From positions 1 through 64,000 of the forward strand of contig JAAXKQ010000002.1 in assembly GCA_025612245.1 (NCBI GenBank): a stretch of DNA of 64,000 nucleotides, read 5' to 3'. Within the stretch, counting starts at the first letter, position 1. Each line of letters opens with the position of its first letter. The position numbers and the translations under genes were made by a program. The notes under the pieces were generated by a model, which worked only from the letters and a program-made list of their open reading frames with translations, was not told the origin of the DNA and made no database searches. Below, piece by piece: positions 12,738-42,363 of this stretch. The DNA is from Ignavibacteria bacterium. Its GTDB lineage: Bacteria > Bacteroidota > Ignavibacteria > Ignavibacteriales > SURF-24.

Positions 12738-12761
12738 GTAGGGGCGGACGGCGGTCCGCCC
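12738..12761 (+). repeat. REP-like hairpin, GTAG head, copy 1
   Basis: GTAG (12738-12741) followed by a perfect stem GGGCGGAC-GGCG-GTCCGCCC. A second copy at 17464-17487 has the same head and loop but GGGCGAAC / GTTCGCCC arms. The G-C to A-T exchange on both arms is a compensatory change. Confidence 0.75.
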
Positions 12762-12944
12762 TTGACTCGACGCAAAATTCCGGTAAATAAAAATAAAATC
12801 CGGTCATAACCCCCGGCGCGGGAAATTCCGGCAAATACAAAAACAATATTCTTTATATCCCCGGGACGGGGTTAAATGCGGGGCGAAAAAAGGGCAAAAA
12901 CGAACGGGAATCTGGGATCTCCACTGGCAGAAATCGTAAAACAA

Positions 12945-16789: not shown

Positions 16790-17337
16790 TTTTACTCCGA
16801 TTATGTGAGACTTATATATTGTGGTTAGTGCTAAACTTCTTTTTACCGGCTGGTCACAATTATTTCCCATTTATTTTTGGTTAATTGCTGGCTCTATATG
16901 ACAAAGAAAAATTACTTTCAAGGGTATGATTCTGAAACTGTTATACCTCAAAATTCCTCATCTGTCAATCCCAAATTCCGTTCAGCCATGCTAATTTTAT
17001 TTCTTATTAGTTCTTAAAGTAGAAGATATATTTGCCTAAAACAGCGATCCATCAATGAGCGAATTTCCAATGGAAACTTTGCGAATAAGTATGAAATTGT
17101 CAACCACCTTAATTATATGTCATAGACTAATTTATCGTTAGAATTATAGCTGGGAGGGTTTTTGTTTTTGCAGGTTACCAGGAATTAGATGGAATCTAAG
17201 CGGCATATATGGAGCCGACTATGAGCGGTCCTTTGATCTTTTCTTCATGTATTTCTCTACAAATAGAATACCGCAACGCGGTAATTGAGACGGCACATTT
17301 ATAACTGTTCTGATCTCATATTATTGCTCTCCCTTCC

Positions 17338-17433: not shown

Positions 17434-17467
17434 TTTCTACAGAAAAGGGCTTTCTACAGAAAAGGGC
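17434..17467. repeat. 17-base tandem duplication
   Basis: TTTCTACAGAAAAGGGC occurs twice in direct succession (17434-17450 and 17451-17467). The second copy runs into the REP-like hairpin. Confidence 0.85.
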
Positions 17468-17487
17468 GAACCGCCGTTCGCCCCTAC
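17464..17487 (-). repeat. REP-like hairpin, GTAG head, copy 2
   Basis: On the minus strand it reads GTAG, then GGGCGAAC-GGCG-GTTCGCCC. It differs from copy 1 (12738-12761) by one compensated base pair and lies in opposite orientation. Confidence 0.75.
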
Positions 17488-38401: not shown

Positions 38402-41215
38402 ATGAAACGCACTCTTTTGTCCTTTTCAGCTCTTTTCTTTATCCTTTTTTTCCAACTGAATGCCCAGGAAATAAGCCTGGATAGTAAACTGCCCGTTGAC
38501 CCGGAAGTAAAAATGGGTAAACTTCCAAACGGGATGACCTACTACATAAAAAAGAACCATAAGCCGGAAAAACGGGCTGAACTGCGCCTTGTGGTTAATG
38601 CAGGCGCCATTCAGGAAGACGACATACAGAACGGGCTTGCCCACTTTTCGGAACACATGGCCTTTAACGGAACAAAAAATTTCAAAAAGCAGGAAGTCAT
38701 AAACTTCATGGAATCCATCGGCATGCGCTTCGGTCCCGAGGTAAATGCCTATACCTCGTTCGACGAAACCGTCTATATGCTGCAGGTCCCCACAGACACT
38801 ATAAGAATTCTGGAGAAGGGGTTCCAGATTCTGGAAGAATGGGCGCACAATGTAAGCTACGAAAATGAGGAAATTGACAAGGAAAGAGGGGTTATAATTG
38901 AAGAATGGCGCCTTAGGCGCGGCGCTGAGGCCAGGATGTGGGATAAACAATCCGCTATCATGTTTAAGGGCTCCAAATATGCCGTGCATAATGTGCTAGG
39001 TCAAAAAGAAATCCTGGAAAAGTTTGACTATGAGACTCTGAAGAAGTTCTATAAGGACTGGTACCGTCCCGACCTTATGGCGGTTGTTGCCGTGGGGGAC
39101 TTTGATGTAAATGCCATTGAAGAGATCATTAAAAACCGTTTTTCGGGTATTGCCGCTCCAAAGAATCCAAGAGAACACACCTTAAGTCCTGTGCTCGACC
39201 ACAAGGAGCCTTACTTTGCAATAGCTTCCGATAAGGAAGCCTCCGGAAGCTCAGTGTCAATTTACTACATGAGGCCCATTGAGCCTGAAGTTACGGTAAA
39301 AGACTACAGGCGCAGTATTGTTGAGAATCTCTACAATAACATGTTTAATAAGCGCCTTTATGAACTCTCAAAACAGGCCGACCCTCCCTTTGTTTATGCT
39401 TACTCAGGGCGCTATGATATTGTAAGAACCAAGAGCAGCTACATTCTTGCTGCCAGTGTTAAAGATAACGGAGTAAACAGGGCACTGGAAACACTCCTCA
39501 GGGAAGCTAAAAGAGTGGACCAGTTCGGTTTTACACAAGGTGAGCTCGACCGCCAGAAAAAAGAGACGCTAAGATATATGGAACAGGCGTTTAAGGAAAA
39601 AGACAAGACGGAAAATTCAAGTTATGCCTCCGAATATGTCGCGAATTTCCTTACCGGGCAGCCGATAGCAGGTATAGCTTATGACTATGAGCTTTATAAG
39701 AAATTTGTTCCTGAGATTACAGTAGAAGAAATAAACAAACTGGCCAGCGACTACATACGCGATGAAAACCGCGTGATTACGGCAAACGTGCCAGAAAAAG
39801 AAGGTGTGGTAATCCCCAAGGAAGAAGAACTTGCAAAAATCTTTGAAGCCTCTTCAAAAGAAAAAGTTACGGCTTACGTCGATAAGACGGTCTCTGAGGA
39901 TTTATTGGATAAGGCTCCAACGCCGGGAAAAATTACTTCTGAAAGCAAGCGTGAGGATCTGGGCCTTACGGAACTTACGCTTTCAAACGGCGTAAAGGTG
40001 GTCTTAAAACCAACGAATTTTAAGAACGATGAGATCCTTTTTACTTCGTATTCAAAAGGGGGTAATTCCCTTGCCCCGGACAGCGACTTTGTATCGGCTG
40101 TTATTGCCTCTTCCATTATCAATGAGGCTGGAGTAGGAAAGTTCGACCAGATTGCGCTTGCCAAGGCCCTTTCGGGCAAGATGGTTAGGGTAGATCCTTC
40201 TATAGCCGATATACAGGAAACAGTCTCAGGCTCGGGAAGCGCGGCTGATATGGAAACCATGTTTAAGCTCATTTATCTGCATTTTACCTCTCCGCGCATG
40301 GATTCAACGGCTTTCCTTTCATTTAAGGGGAGAATGAAAGCCTACCTGGAGAACAGGAGCCTGGAGCCTTATTCAGCGCTTCAGGATACATTAAGCCTGA
40401 CACTCTGGAATTACCACTTACGTTCATATCCATGGACAGTTAAAACTCTGGATAAAATAGACCTTAAGAAAGCGTTTAATTTCTATAAGGACCGCTACGG
40501 CGATGCGGGTGACTTTACGTTCTTTTTTGTCGGCAATTTCGACGTTGAAAAGATAAAGCCATTCCTTGCAACATACCTTGGCAGTCTTCCTACAACAGGA
40601 AGAAAAGAAAACTGGAAAGATACCAAAATGGAATACGCCAGGGGTGTTATAGAGAAAACGGTATTCAAGGGGATTGAATCCAAAAGTCAAGTCGTTTTAA
40701 GCTTTAACGGACCCCTGGAATGGTCGCAGCAGAATATATACGACCTCAGGGCAATGGCCGACGTGCTGGATATTAAGCTCCGCGAAGTAATTAGAGAAGA
40801 AAAAGGAGGCACTTACGGCGTAAGCGTGAACCATGGAGTTAGTCATTACCCGAAAGAGGGCTACAGCATTAATATCTCTTTCGGCTGCGACCCGAAGAAA
40901 GCCGAAGAGCTTACAAATGCGGTTTTCGTACAGCTCGACAGCCTGAAGAAGTTCGGCCCCGCCCCAACTTACATACAGAAAGTAAGGGAAACACACATCA
41001 AATCAAGGGAAACCTCCTTAAAGAGAAACGAGGTATGGTTATACAGCCTCCTGGGGGCTTACTTCAACGATGAGGACCCGATTGAGATTCTTGATTACAT
41101 TAAGCTTATTGAGAATATTTCGGCCAAGGAGGTTCAGGCTGCGGCACAAAAGTACCTGGATAATAAGAATTATGTTAAAGTGATACTTTACCCCGAGGGC
41201 TTCAAAGGGCTCTGA
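38402..41215 (+). CDS. Exported M16 family zinc peptidase
   Basis: A 937-residue pitrilysin-type peptidase with a signal peptide (1-21). The inverted zinc motif HxxEH is His81-Phe-Ser-Glu84-His85, with the third ligand Glu near 160 (ENEEIDKERGVIIEEW). It contains both active (about 30-450) and inactive (about 520-930) halves in one chain, the usual double-length form. It is probably periplasmic and degrades peptides. A terminator follows 30 bases after the stop. Confidence 0.95.
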   Translation: MKRTLLSFSALFFILFFQLNAQEISLDSKLPVDPEVKMGKLPNGMTYYIKKNHKPEKRAELRLVVNAGAIQEDDIQNGLAHFSEHMAFNGTKNFKKQEVINFMESIGMRFGPEVNAYTSFDETVYMLQVPTDTIRILEKGFQILEEWAHNVSYENEEIDKERGVIIEEWRLRRGAEARMWDKQSAIMFKGSKYAVHNVLGQKEILEKFDYETLKKFYKDWYRPDLMAVVAVGDFDVNAIEEIIKNRFSGIAAPKNPREHTLSPVLDHKEPYFAIASDKEASGSSVSIYYMRPIEPEVTVKDYRRSIVENLYNNMFNKRLYELSKQADPPFVYAYSGRYDIVRTKSSYILAASVKDNGVNRALETLLREAKRVDQFGFTQGELDRQKKETLRYMEQAFKEKDKTENSSYASEYVANFLTGQPIAGIAYDYELYKKFVPEITVEEINKLASDYIRDENRVITANVPEKEGVVIPKEEELAKIFEASSKEKVTAYVDKTVSEDLLDKAPTPGKITSESKREDLGLTELTLSNGVKVVLKPTNFKNDEILFTSYSKGGNSLAPDSDFVSAVIASSIINEAGVGKFDQIALAKALSGKMVRVDPSIADIQETVSGSGSAADMETMFKLIYLHFTSPRMDSTAFLSFKGRMKAYLENRSLEPYSALQDTLSLTLWNYHLRSYPWTVKTLDKIDLKKAFNFYKDRYGDAGDFTFFFVGNFDVEKIKPFLATYLGSLPTTGRKENWKDTKMEYARGVIEKTVFKGIESKSQVVLSFNGPLEWSQQNIYDLRAMADVLDIKLREVIREEKGGTYGVSVNHGVSHYPKEGYSINISFGCDPKKAEELTNAVFVQLDSLKKFGPAPTYIQKVRETHIKSRETSLKRNEVWLYSLLGAYFNDEDPIEILDYIKLIENISAKEVQAAAQKYLDNKNYVKVILYPEGFKGL

Positions 41216-41244
41216 AAAGCTGAATGTGGTACTGAATGTTTAAG

Positions 41245-41271
41245 GGCGGAGAATGTATCTCCGCCTTTTTT
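41245..41271 (+). terminator. Terminator after M16 peptidase
   Basis: Perfect 8-bp stem GGCGGAGA / TCTCCGCC with loop ATGTA and six T. Confidence 0.88.
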
Positions 41272-41360
41272 CATTAGTGTGCGCCCGGCAATATGTCCAC
41301 CCAAATCCCTTGTCAAAGTTCTCCTCCATGCATTTTACCCGTAAGCTTTATATATGTTCT

Positions 41361-41431
41361 GAACTCCGCCAGGAGTGTTACATCAGTAGCCCGGGGTGCG
41401 AAACCCGCGGCGGCGGGTGACAAACCCCGGG
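41361..41431 (+). repeat. Left REP-like inverted repeat
   Basis: Hairpin ACTCC-GCCA-GGAGT (41363-41376), GTAG (41386-41389), and palindrome CCCGGGGT...ACCCCGGG (41390-41397 with 41424-41431). A nested perfect stem ACCCGC-GGCG-GCGGGT lies at 41403-41418. Confidence 0.8.
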
Positions 41432-41455
41432 TTAAATAATCCCCTACACCACAAA

Positions 41456-41469
41456 GCTCCGTCAGGAGC
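41456..41469 (+). repeat. Extra REP-like hairpin
   Basis: GCTCC-GTCA-GGAGC, a variant of the outer hairpin of the flanking repeats with one changed loop base and a compensated closing pair, 25 bases inside the left repeat. Confidence 0.65.
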
Positions 41470-41636
41470 GATACATTAAACAGGAACGACATATGAATCA
41501 GGATAGAAAAATAAAATTGTGCTTGGTTTCACATGGCTGAAATGATAACCGGATTAAATTGAATCATATCAAAAGAAAACCGGCATAACCGATTAAATCA
41601 TTTACGTACAAAAACAATTAAAGAAAGGAGCCGGTC

Positions 41637-42122
41637 GTGCCAGACACATACACGCAGGTCTACATCCATATGGTATTTGCAGTAAAGCTAAGGCAGTTCA
41701 TGATAAAACCTTCTTTTTCAGGTCATCTTGAGAGGTATATTACAGGAATCGTGCAGAAAAAAGGCTCAAAGATTATGGCTATAAAAACCATGCCAGATCA
41801 CATGCATTTATTAGTTTCACTTAATCCTAATGCCTCAGTTTCGGATCTAGCAAGGGACATAAAGGCGTGCTCATCAGGATACATTAAGAAAGCCTTTAAT
41901 TGCAACCTCTTTTCTTGGCAGACAGGCTACGGGGCATTCTCATACTCAAAAAGTCAGCTCAAGCAGGTTGCGGGATATATTCAGAAGCAGGAGGAGCACC
42001 ACAGGCAAAAATCCTTCAAAGAGGAATATATGAAGATCCTCATGGATTTTGGTGTGGAATATGATGAGAAATACCTATTTACGTGGATTTCTGATGTGGA
42101 AGAAGGTGAGGCCTCAAATTAA
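41637..42122 (+). CDS. IS200/RAYT-type Y1 HUH transposase
   Basis: A 161-residue protein of the Y1_Tnp family, which cuts and joins single-stranded DNA. The metal-binding HUH is His-Met-His in MPDHMHLLVSL, and the catalytic Tyr is in VAGYIQKQEEHH, followed by the conserved EEHH. The start is a GTG behind AAAGGAG (41624-41630). Length suits IS200/IS605 TnpA or single-copy REP-associated transposases. No TnpB partner is present. The flanking inverted REP-like repeats favour the RAYT type. Confidence 0.9.
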   Translation: MPDTYTQVYIHMVFAVKLRQFMIKPSFSGHLERYITGIVQKKGSKIMAIKTMPDHMHLLVSLNPNASVSDLARDIKACSSGYIKKAFNCNLFSWQTGYGAFSYSKSQLKQVAGYIQKQEEHHRQKSFKEEYMKILMDFGVEYDEKYLFTWISDVEEGEASN

Positions 42123-42123
42123 A

Positions 42124-42196
42124 TATCCCCGGGGTTTGGCGCCCCTCCGTGGGCTTCGCACCCCGGGCTACTGATATGGCACTCCTGGCGGAGTTC
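42124..42196 (-). repeat. Right REP-like inverted repeat
   Basis: Reverse complement of the left repeat: palindrome arms CCCCGGG near 42127 and 42161, CTAC (42168-42171) and hairpin ACTCC-TGGC-GGAGT (42181-42194). The inner stem has diverged more than the outer part. Confidence 0.8.
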
Positions 42197-42363
42197 CTGA
42201 ATGCTACTCACGGATGGTTTACAGCTCCATTCTTTCCGAATTAAATAAATTAAATTTTAACTTCTTCCGCATTTTTTATATCTTCTTTAAATAAGGGCAA
42301 TTCCATGTCCAATTATTTAGTTTTACACCGTTTATTCATAAAATATATTAAAGAGGGCAAAAA

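Follow-up and report, generated by a model that had tools for sequence, protein, structure and literature searches.

The locus described here lies in a window of 64,000 nucleotides (the whole stretch of DNA that was analysed) from a genome of 4.84 Mb in 44 contigs. It holds a unit of 836 nt (41361-42196, plus strand) made up of a transposase gene between inverted ends: the outer arms measure 53 nt (41361-41413 and 42144-42196, 89% complementary), and a further pair of 17 nt follows inwards (41415-41431 and 42128-42144). Read inwards, both ends have the same order of parts: a hairpin ACTCC-GCCA-GGAGT, a 9-nt linker, the tetranucleotide GTAG and a GC-rich palindrome. At the left end, on the plus strand, these are found at 41363-41376 (hairpin), 41377-41385 (linker, GTTACATCA), 41386-41389 (GTAG tag, 14 nt past the loop) and 41390-41431 (palindrome CCCGGGG...CCCCGGG, abutting the GTAG); at the right end, on the minus strand, at 42181-42194 (hairpin), 42172-42180 (linker, GCCATATCA), 42168-42171 (GTAG tag) and 42128-42167 (palindrome). 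The open reading frame between the ends (41637-42122, plus strand, GTG start) encodes a Y1 (HUH) transposase of 161 aa, which together with the inverted arms bears out the layout given in the earlier note, a Y1 HUH transposase between inverted hairpin-GTAG-palindrome ends. The three differences that the note had counted in the outer 42 bases are also exactly three, and all of them fall within the linker between hairpin and GTAG.

The left end contains a second hairpin, GCTCC-GTCA-GGAGC (41456-41469, plus strand), in the orientation of the left outer hairpin. The earlier note had listed it at 41.46 kb with the GTAG hairpins; it is real, and its 3' neighbour is GATACATTAAACA, not GTAG. It is the final part of a composite repeat and has a counterpart in a composite of the sister species G001. 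The hairpins that the note had assigned to the same system at 12.7 and 17.5 kb proved to be of another type: at 12738-12762 and 17462-17487 (minus strand) there are GTAG-GGGCGNAC hairpins whose GGGCG-stems carry the tag at the 5' foot, a REP type that differs from that of the window unit, and not copies of its ends. A dispersed tagged hairpin of yet a different family, TACCGC-GTT-GCGGTA followed by TTCTATTTGTAG, is located at 17254-17284 (minus strand; match to the repeat model R1 with 22.5 bits, E 0.014). The repeat model recognises the ends of the unit itself poorly, if at all: the right outer hairpin gives a weak match to R1 (15.7 bits, E 0.49). The string GTAGCCCSGGG occurs with zero mismatches at two sites in the window, which are the two ends of the unit and no others; with two mismatches its occurrence in the window is at chance level (25 observed vs 20.8 expected).

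The transposase (P0001) has the Y motif YIQKQEEHH, the HUH motif DHMH and then WQ, at positions that vary little or not at all in alignments of 13 and 46 proteins. In those passages of Quentin et al. (2018, PMC6006769) that define the classes, subclass 1.2 is characterized by Y---Q--HH, DH[IV]H, WQ and a length of ~150 aa, class 2 (the RAYTs) by Y---NP and subclass 1.1 (the IS200 transposases) by Y[IV]ENQ; the same passages place subclass 1.2 mostly in Cyanobacteria and Bacteroidetes at low copy number, give 'no' in its REP column and describe typical IS200 ends as generally absent. The window protein has the motifs of subclass 1.2, except for M in place of I/V in the HUH motif (DHMH vs DH[IV]H). 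A tree was built from 126 proteins (125 different) by a quick method; it contains several long branches and only six 1.1 rows. In it the 100 subclass 1.2 rows (99 different) fall together on one side of a branch (SH-aLRT 86), the 20 class 2 rows, E. coli RayT among them, form a separate side (SH-aLRT 100), and the six subclass 1.1 (IS200) rows have a branch side of their own (SH-aLRT 72); nine of the 80 named loci introduced below were left out of the tree on account of a short frame or a motif unmatched by the script. The window protein scores 75 bits with the NCBIfam IS200 model (cut-off 55) and 35.7 bits with the NCBIfam model REP_Tyr_transpos, NF047646 (cut-off 80). Its structure as predicted by AlphaFold2 (pLDDT 90) is closest to the Sulfolobus tokodaii transposase, ISDra2 and IS608, with Z ~13 over 104-119 residues (13.0 to ISDra2, 12.9 to IS608), and compares to E. 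coli TnpAREP (4er8) with Z 10.5 over 126 residues, C-terminal helices included; the best sequence match among solved proteins is of the ISDra2/IS608 type as well (E 2e-16). Judged by motif, tree and nearest structures, the enzyme is a TnpA-Y1 transposase of subclass 1.2 that adjoins the IS200 transposases. Identity as a class 2 RAYT was considered and rejected: YIQKQEEHH is not Y---NP, the NF047646 score of 35.7 is below 80 and class 2 stands separate in the tree. The phylogeny that the earlier note had proposed as a check thus places the transposase beside the IS200 1.1 rows, not inside them and not among the class 2 RAYTs.

Many subclass 1.2 proteins score above the cut-off of the NCBIfam IS200 equivalog NF033573, and as a consequence public annotation calls them IS200/IS605 transposases (e.g. 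L230). By record title, members of the subclass also occur in Verrucomicrobiota, Poribacteria, Neomarinimicrobiota, Cloacimonadota and Acidobacteria, mostly in metagenome-assembled genomes. Three plasmid records cover at least 80% of the protein, two of them from Bacteroidota (53% and 38% identity) and one a Mycolicibacterium IS200 (26%); among phages, no record with that coverage was found.

The window's own genome (G000) contains three full copies of the gene that are 46-59% identical (the copy closest to the window gene at 59%) and two fragments, which agrees with the low copy number of subclass 1.2 and not with the near-identical multicopy state of IS200/IS605. The other full genes are on C26 and at 124 kb of C22, and a fragment is on C9, each among its own type of hairpin. 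A 60-aa remnant of a subclass 1.2 gene with its own CCCC-GATGA-GGGG hairpins (L024, G000:C9:53920) is a decayed unit. The sister species G001 has more copies (9 matches), some of them 84-88% alike. Seven genes in G001 have tagged hairpins, the GTAG being 6-9 nt past the stem; six of them have these on both sides, and the seventh is near a contig end. The stems vary: ACTCC (in the window), GTCCTTC, GTCATCC, GCCTC, AAAGCCGC, AAACCAC and TATCCGC.

The ends of the window unit match 16 other places in the own genome. The 11 of these 16 that were read are all composites, one of them interrupted by a contig end, and have the following order: GCCCGC-AGC-GCGGGC, a 9-nt linker (e.g. GAGATCTTT, GTAACATCA), GTAG, a CCCGGGG palindrome and GCTCC-GGTCA-GGAGC. 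The closest relative in G001 (71% identity) has a complete composite at both ends, and the right end in the window is a composite without the last hairpin. The succession of outer hairpin, GTAG and GC-rich palindrome is therefore a composite, in which a tagged hairpin is joined by a palindrome after the tag. One intergenic region of the own genome (L011, G000:C5 209929-211523) is a mosaic of several hairpin families, parts of which recur near other composites.

The flanks of related genes were analysed for 80 loci out of 569 confirmed ones, taken from one genome per species and selected regardless of repeats. A tagged hairpin was defined by a perfect stem of at least 5 bp, a loop of 3 or 4, RTAG at 14 or 15 nt 3' of the loop, and an inward-facing direction. 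Within 250 nt of the gene such a hairpin was present in 44 of 76 upstream and 41 of 78 downstream flanks; at 250-500 nt the counts were 3/75 upstream and 5/74 downstream, at 500-750 nt 1/73 and 2/74, and at more than 1 kb 0 or 1 out of 66-74 for each band tested. As controls, the reversed tag was found in 1 of 76 and 1 of 78 of the 250-nt flanks, and shuffled flanks gave a mean of 0.1 per 160. Counted per locus (within 250 nt), 60 of the 80 relatives have a tagged hairpin and 20 have none, vs one of 19 class 2 genes from the host's class (30 loci were collected, of which 11 were unused: eight without a picked frame, two with overlong frames and one without the motif). A further 30 NF033573 loci from the class yielded 16 of subclass 1.2 and four of subclass 1.1, after six without a picked frame and four broken or misread subclass 1.2 genes had been set aside. 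Among these 16 subclass 1.2 loci, a set that includes distant members, seven have a tagged hairpin and five have a hairpin with GTRG at the 5' foot, instead or additionally; in the 80 relatives, 5'-foot REPs occur at five loci. The subclass 1.1 set was made up of the four loci of the class (two with less than 100 nt upstream) and the plasmid IS200 loci L232, L233, L234 and L236, with L235 (Y---Q--HH) and L237 (motif unclear) excluded, and here the tagged hairpin is found at one of eight loci, L232 alone. Of the Bacteroidota plasmid relatives, L230 has tagged repeats and L231 has none according to the script.

Some distant subclass 1.2 genes (L203, L208, L209) are surrounded by hairpins of other sorts, a few of which start from a 5'-foot GTAG, and two in G002 (L034, L036) have no tagged hairpin; subclass 1.2 may hence have several repeat types. 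In Flavobacterium frigoris, a Flavo-1 RNA (RF01705, 73 bits; L101 459-539) is located ~2 kb from the subclass 1.2 gene.

The consensus of the repeats reads GCYCC-RTA-GGRGC, then approximately GAMATNTTT, RTAG and a run of A. The repeat is thus a hairpin of 5-8 bp with RTAG mostly 14 nt past the loop (a 5-bp core stem plus a 9-nt linker). The distance between loop and tag is mostly kept: as the stem lengthens the linker shortens, in the combinations 5+9, 6+8, 7+7 and 8+6. Exceptions are found in G001, where the window unit's two nearest relatives combine a stem of 7 bp with 9 nt and so have RTAG 16 nt from the loop, and in the own-genome composites (GCCCGC stem plus 9 nt). What is kept in the window's closest kin is instead the 9 nt between stem and tag, the tag being 14-16 nt from the loop.

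We then asked which of these parts are conserved as sequence. When sites were chosen by linker and tag alone, with linker patterns that were written after the families had been seen, 32 of 47 sites of the own genome and 14 of 15 of G001 had a perfect 5-bp stem where one was predicted, vs 0-4 at shifted places of the same sites. For the 59 loci with tagged repeats, protein identity is correlated with that of the linkers (Mantel r 0.31, a value that 0 of 999 permutations reached), a result that may partly stem from shared descent, but not with stem identity (r -0.01, 611 of 999 permutations). Common descent may contribute, but it would affect the stem too. Between the two ends of one unit linker identity is 0.72, vs 0.49 across units (25 loci). 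The stem is therefore kept by pairing and not by sequence, while the linker varies with the protein, as is expected if the hairpin is read by shape and the linker by sequence. In the alignment A2 every pair of the core stem changes on both sides; this covariation was not used as proof because the repeats had been chosen by requiring perfect stems, and the choice of sites by linker and tag is the less constrained test. A guide tetranucleotide was also looked for 5' of the hairpin, and a preference was found only in 1-2 bases at the foot. The choice between G and A in RTAG follows the base immediately before it and hardly any base 5' of the hairpin.

Dispersed copies were searched with a covariance model built from 57 repeats of other genomes (58 minus one duplicate). 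Because no more than 150 or 61 candidates per genome were scored with the model, the counts are lower bounds: at E up to 1 there are at least 58 matches in the own genome, at least 69 in G001, at least 12 in G002 and at least 5 in G004, and none in G003, which has no such gene. The 14 genomes that were reached through the named loci, eight of which had each contributed one repeat to the model, gave from at least 3 to at least 74 matches, with only weak ones in G006 and G016. These repeats, all short hairpins with a tag, fall into several families and are frequently arrayed; the best matches are mostly intergenic (8 of 29 lie inside ORFs of at least 120 aa, which take up 79% of positions). Taken with the 16 other matches of the unit's ends, the counts answer the earlier note's call for a genome-wide search: dispersed repeats exist. 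In a genome titled Poribacteria (G009, C1 4700472-4700857) six tagged hairpins follow each other with an exact spacing of 71 nt.

The repeats and the gene tend to occur together. In a sample of 119 genomes of the class (repeat matches at E 0.1; bands of gene E-value set after the table had been seen), repeats are present in 31 of 32 genomes with a gene at E ≤ 1e-50, the own genome included, vs 13 of 48 without the gene (p ~1e-10); at the loosest cut-off for the gene, 1e-8, the numbers are 47 of 71 vs 13 of 48 (p 3e-5). Of the genomes with distant genes only (E 1e-45 to 1e-30) 5 of 20 have repeats. The RTAG tag thus appears to be a feature of that part of subclass 1.2 which surrounds the window protein, distant members having other hairpins. 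One genome with a close gene (G037) has no model match; its flanks at L198 show, by eye, CCTC-GTA-GAGG hairpins without RTAG at the expected place. Six genomes in which no subclass 1.2 gene was detected (G023, G129, G059, G136, G043 and G063) have 6-16 tagged hairpins each, possibly orphan repeats, or a sign of lost genes or of incomplete assemblies.

Several comparisons bear on whether the unit moves. At the corresponding site in G001 the downstream gene and a like terminator are present, the upstream gene differs and nothing matches window positions 41272-42240; in G003 both neighbour genes are present, with 70 nt between the matching stretches and nothing that matches 41197-42345. The unit is thus absent from the same site in two related species, which is what the search for empty sites suggested in the earlier note yields, though the empty site is not base-exact. 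In G001 two units are 84% alike, and the match runs past the outer hairpin by 4 nt at either end. Units sit in arrays of like repeats, so that matches tend to stop at hairpins, which weakens the argument from the ends in G001. A pair of units in G002 is ~98% alike between the left outer tag (GTAG / TTAG) and the right NTAG (TTAG and ATAG on the other strand), a figure that falls to ~77% immediately outside. Two other observations concern the tag: two units in G001 differ by an extra 54 nt, containing a hairpin, that starts right after a GTAG (as the gap was placed by MAFFT) and whose second GTAG is 3 nt before the shared sequence resumes; and in the composites of G000 and G001 the GC-rich palindrome starts directly after GTAG. 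Few as they are, and compared by eye, these cases suggest that units and composites are joined at the tag. In a 20-kb stretch of C12 compared with G001, the parts flanking the repeats are on different G001 contigs, and no base-exact empty site of a solo repeat was found.

On this evidence we think it probable that the unit represents a new kind of REPtron, in which a TnpA-Y1 transposase of subclass 1.2 is combined with repeats of its own; what sets it apart is the position of the tag, which follows the hairpin on its 3' side instead of standing at the 5' foot. The general plan of a REPtron, a gene between inverted copies of a genome-dispersed repeat, is present: in most relatives the gene has tagged hairpins in inverted orientation on either side, and similar dispersed repeats accompany it. 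Of the earlier note's proposal of a REP-associated layout, the REPtron plan and the dispersed copies hold up, and the gammaproteobacterial RAYT layout does not, in view of motif, score, tree and the 3' tag. The note had also named an outcome that would speak against a REP system, a transposase inside multi-copy IS200 elements and no dispersed hairpins; the gene is found beside IS200 and the hairpins are dispersed.

An ordinary IS200/IS605 insertion sequence with the lifestyle of subclass 1.1, whose ends leave MITE-like relics and form no REP-like system, would account for the NCBIfam IS200 score above the cut-off, for ISDra2 and IS608 being the nearest solved structures and for whole units having apparently moved or been duplicated. 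We nevertheless regard it as unlikely, since the gene is beside and not inside the six 1.1 rows of the tree, the three full copies of the own genome are, at 46-59% identity, unlike the near-identical copies of an IS, the dispersed repeats are short, tagged, of several families and often arrayed, and the tagged hairpin occurs at one of eight 1.1 loci. Transcription terminators or RNA elements that flank small genes by chance would fit the intergenic position of the best matches (21 of 29 outside ORFs of at least 120 aa, vs ~21% of positions), but we hold this to be very improbable: the consensus lacks a long T-run downstream of the stem, every Rfam family stays below its gathering score when the window, L220, L024 and L105 are searched, and the fixed RTAG, the inward orientation on either side of the gene and the co-occurrence with it would go unexplained. 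A canonical REPtron with a class 2 RAYT, despite its identical overall plan, a GTAG directly 5' of the GC-rich palindrome that resembles a 5'-foot REP and a WQ motif common to RAYTs, can practically be dismissed, as motif, NCBIfam score and tree are all contrary and the common tag of the relatives is 3' of the hairpin (5'-foot REPs at 5 of 80).

For a REPtron of the new kind, the following mechanism can be proposed. The enzyme would most likely work on single-stranded DNA like its relatives, whose HUH and tyrosine chemistry is covered in PMC8266576. It would bind the hairpin by its shape, read the single-stranded linker and, as we infer from the sequence comparisons, cut and join one strand at or beside RTAG. 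The position of RTAG would approximately correspond, by analogy, to the right cleavage site of IS200/IS605 elements, which is located a short way 3' of its hairpin. The cleavage sites of IS200/IS605 are, as stated in sections of PMC8266576, selected by guides 5' of each hairpin; in the present repeats it is on the 3' side of the hairpin that a tetranucleotide is conserved, and conservation on the 5' side is slight. For RAYTs the same sections give GTAG 5' of the hairpin and cutting at CT. RTAG is CTAY on the other strand, and by analogy a cut at CT would be possible there. Single tagged hairpins, composites (hairpin-GTAG-palindrome-hairpin) and occasionally the whole unit would in this way be mobilised. 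Tentatively, and with some doubt on our part, subclass 1.2 may be seen as a present-day intermediate on the way from IS200 elements to domesticated RAYTs, which would retain IS-like cutting at a 3' RTAG; the same tentative reading holds that the unit still moves, that it drives many solo hairpins and that the 9-nt linker pairs enzymes with their repeats.

Subclass 1.2, which occurs in many Bacteroidota and beyond, had no substrate in the reference classification, and no description of repeats for it was found in the open-licence PMC literature. The candidate substrate of hairpin, 9-nt linker and RTAG would explain a class of intergenic hairpins and makes a natural comparison for REP systems arising from insertion sequences. 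A REPtron that seems mobile is useful in this respect because, going by the relevant part of PMC8266576, no mobility of tnpAREP genes is known.

Compared with known systems, the unit has in common with subclass 1.2, as characterized in the class-defining passages of PMC6006769, the motifs Y---Q--HH and WQ, a length of ~150 aa, low copy number and Bacteroidetes hosts. The difference is that those passages describe the subclass without REPs, whereas most members examined here have tagged inverted hairpins and dispersed copies; we take the published 'no REPs' to be corrected by the 60 of 80 relatives and not as grounds for exclusion. The HUH Y1 fold and the closest sequence among solved proteins link the unit to IS200/IS605 (IS608, ISDra2). 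The succession of hairpin, short linker and tetranucleotide likewise resembles the right end of these elements. The unit differs from IS200/IS605 in its few, divergent copies, in having the same end, inverted, on both sides, and in its many solo repeats. The GTAG REPs and TIRtrons, as presented in parts of Di Nocera et al. (2013, PMC3733652), are alike in their GTAG-tagged palindromes with tyrosine transposases nearby, and the TIRs of Pseudomonas are described there as a degenerate REP joined to another stem-loop; in that account, however, GTAG terminates the palindrome itself, and TIRYTs mostly belong to subclass 2.1 (20 of 26) in the relevant passage of Quentin et al. (2018, PMC6006769). With the class 2 RAYT/TnpAREP REPtrons of E. 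coli and Stenotrophomonas, in the sections of PMC8266576 devoted to them, the unit shares an HUH transposase of the single-strand type, inverted GTAG hairpins and dispersed repeats. It differs from them in the class of its transposase by motif and tree, in a tag that is 3' of the hairpin here and at the 5' foot there, and in that the present unit appears to be mobile, whereas those sections of PMC8266576 see no evidence of mobility for tnpAREP.
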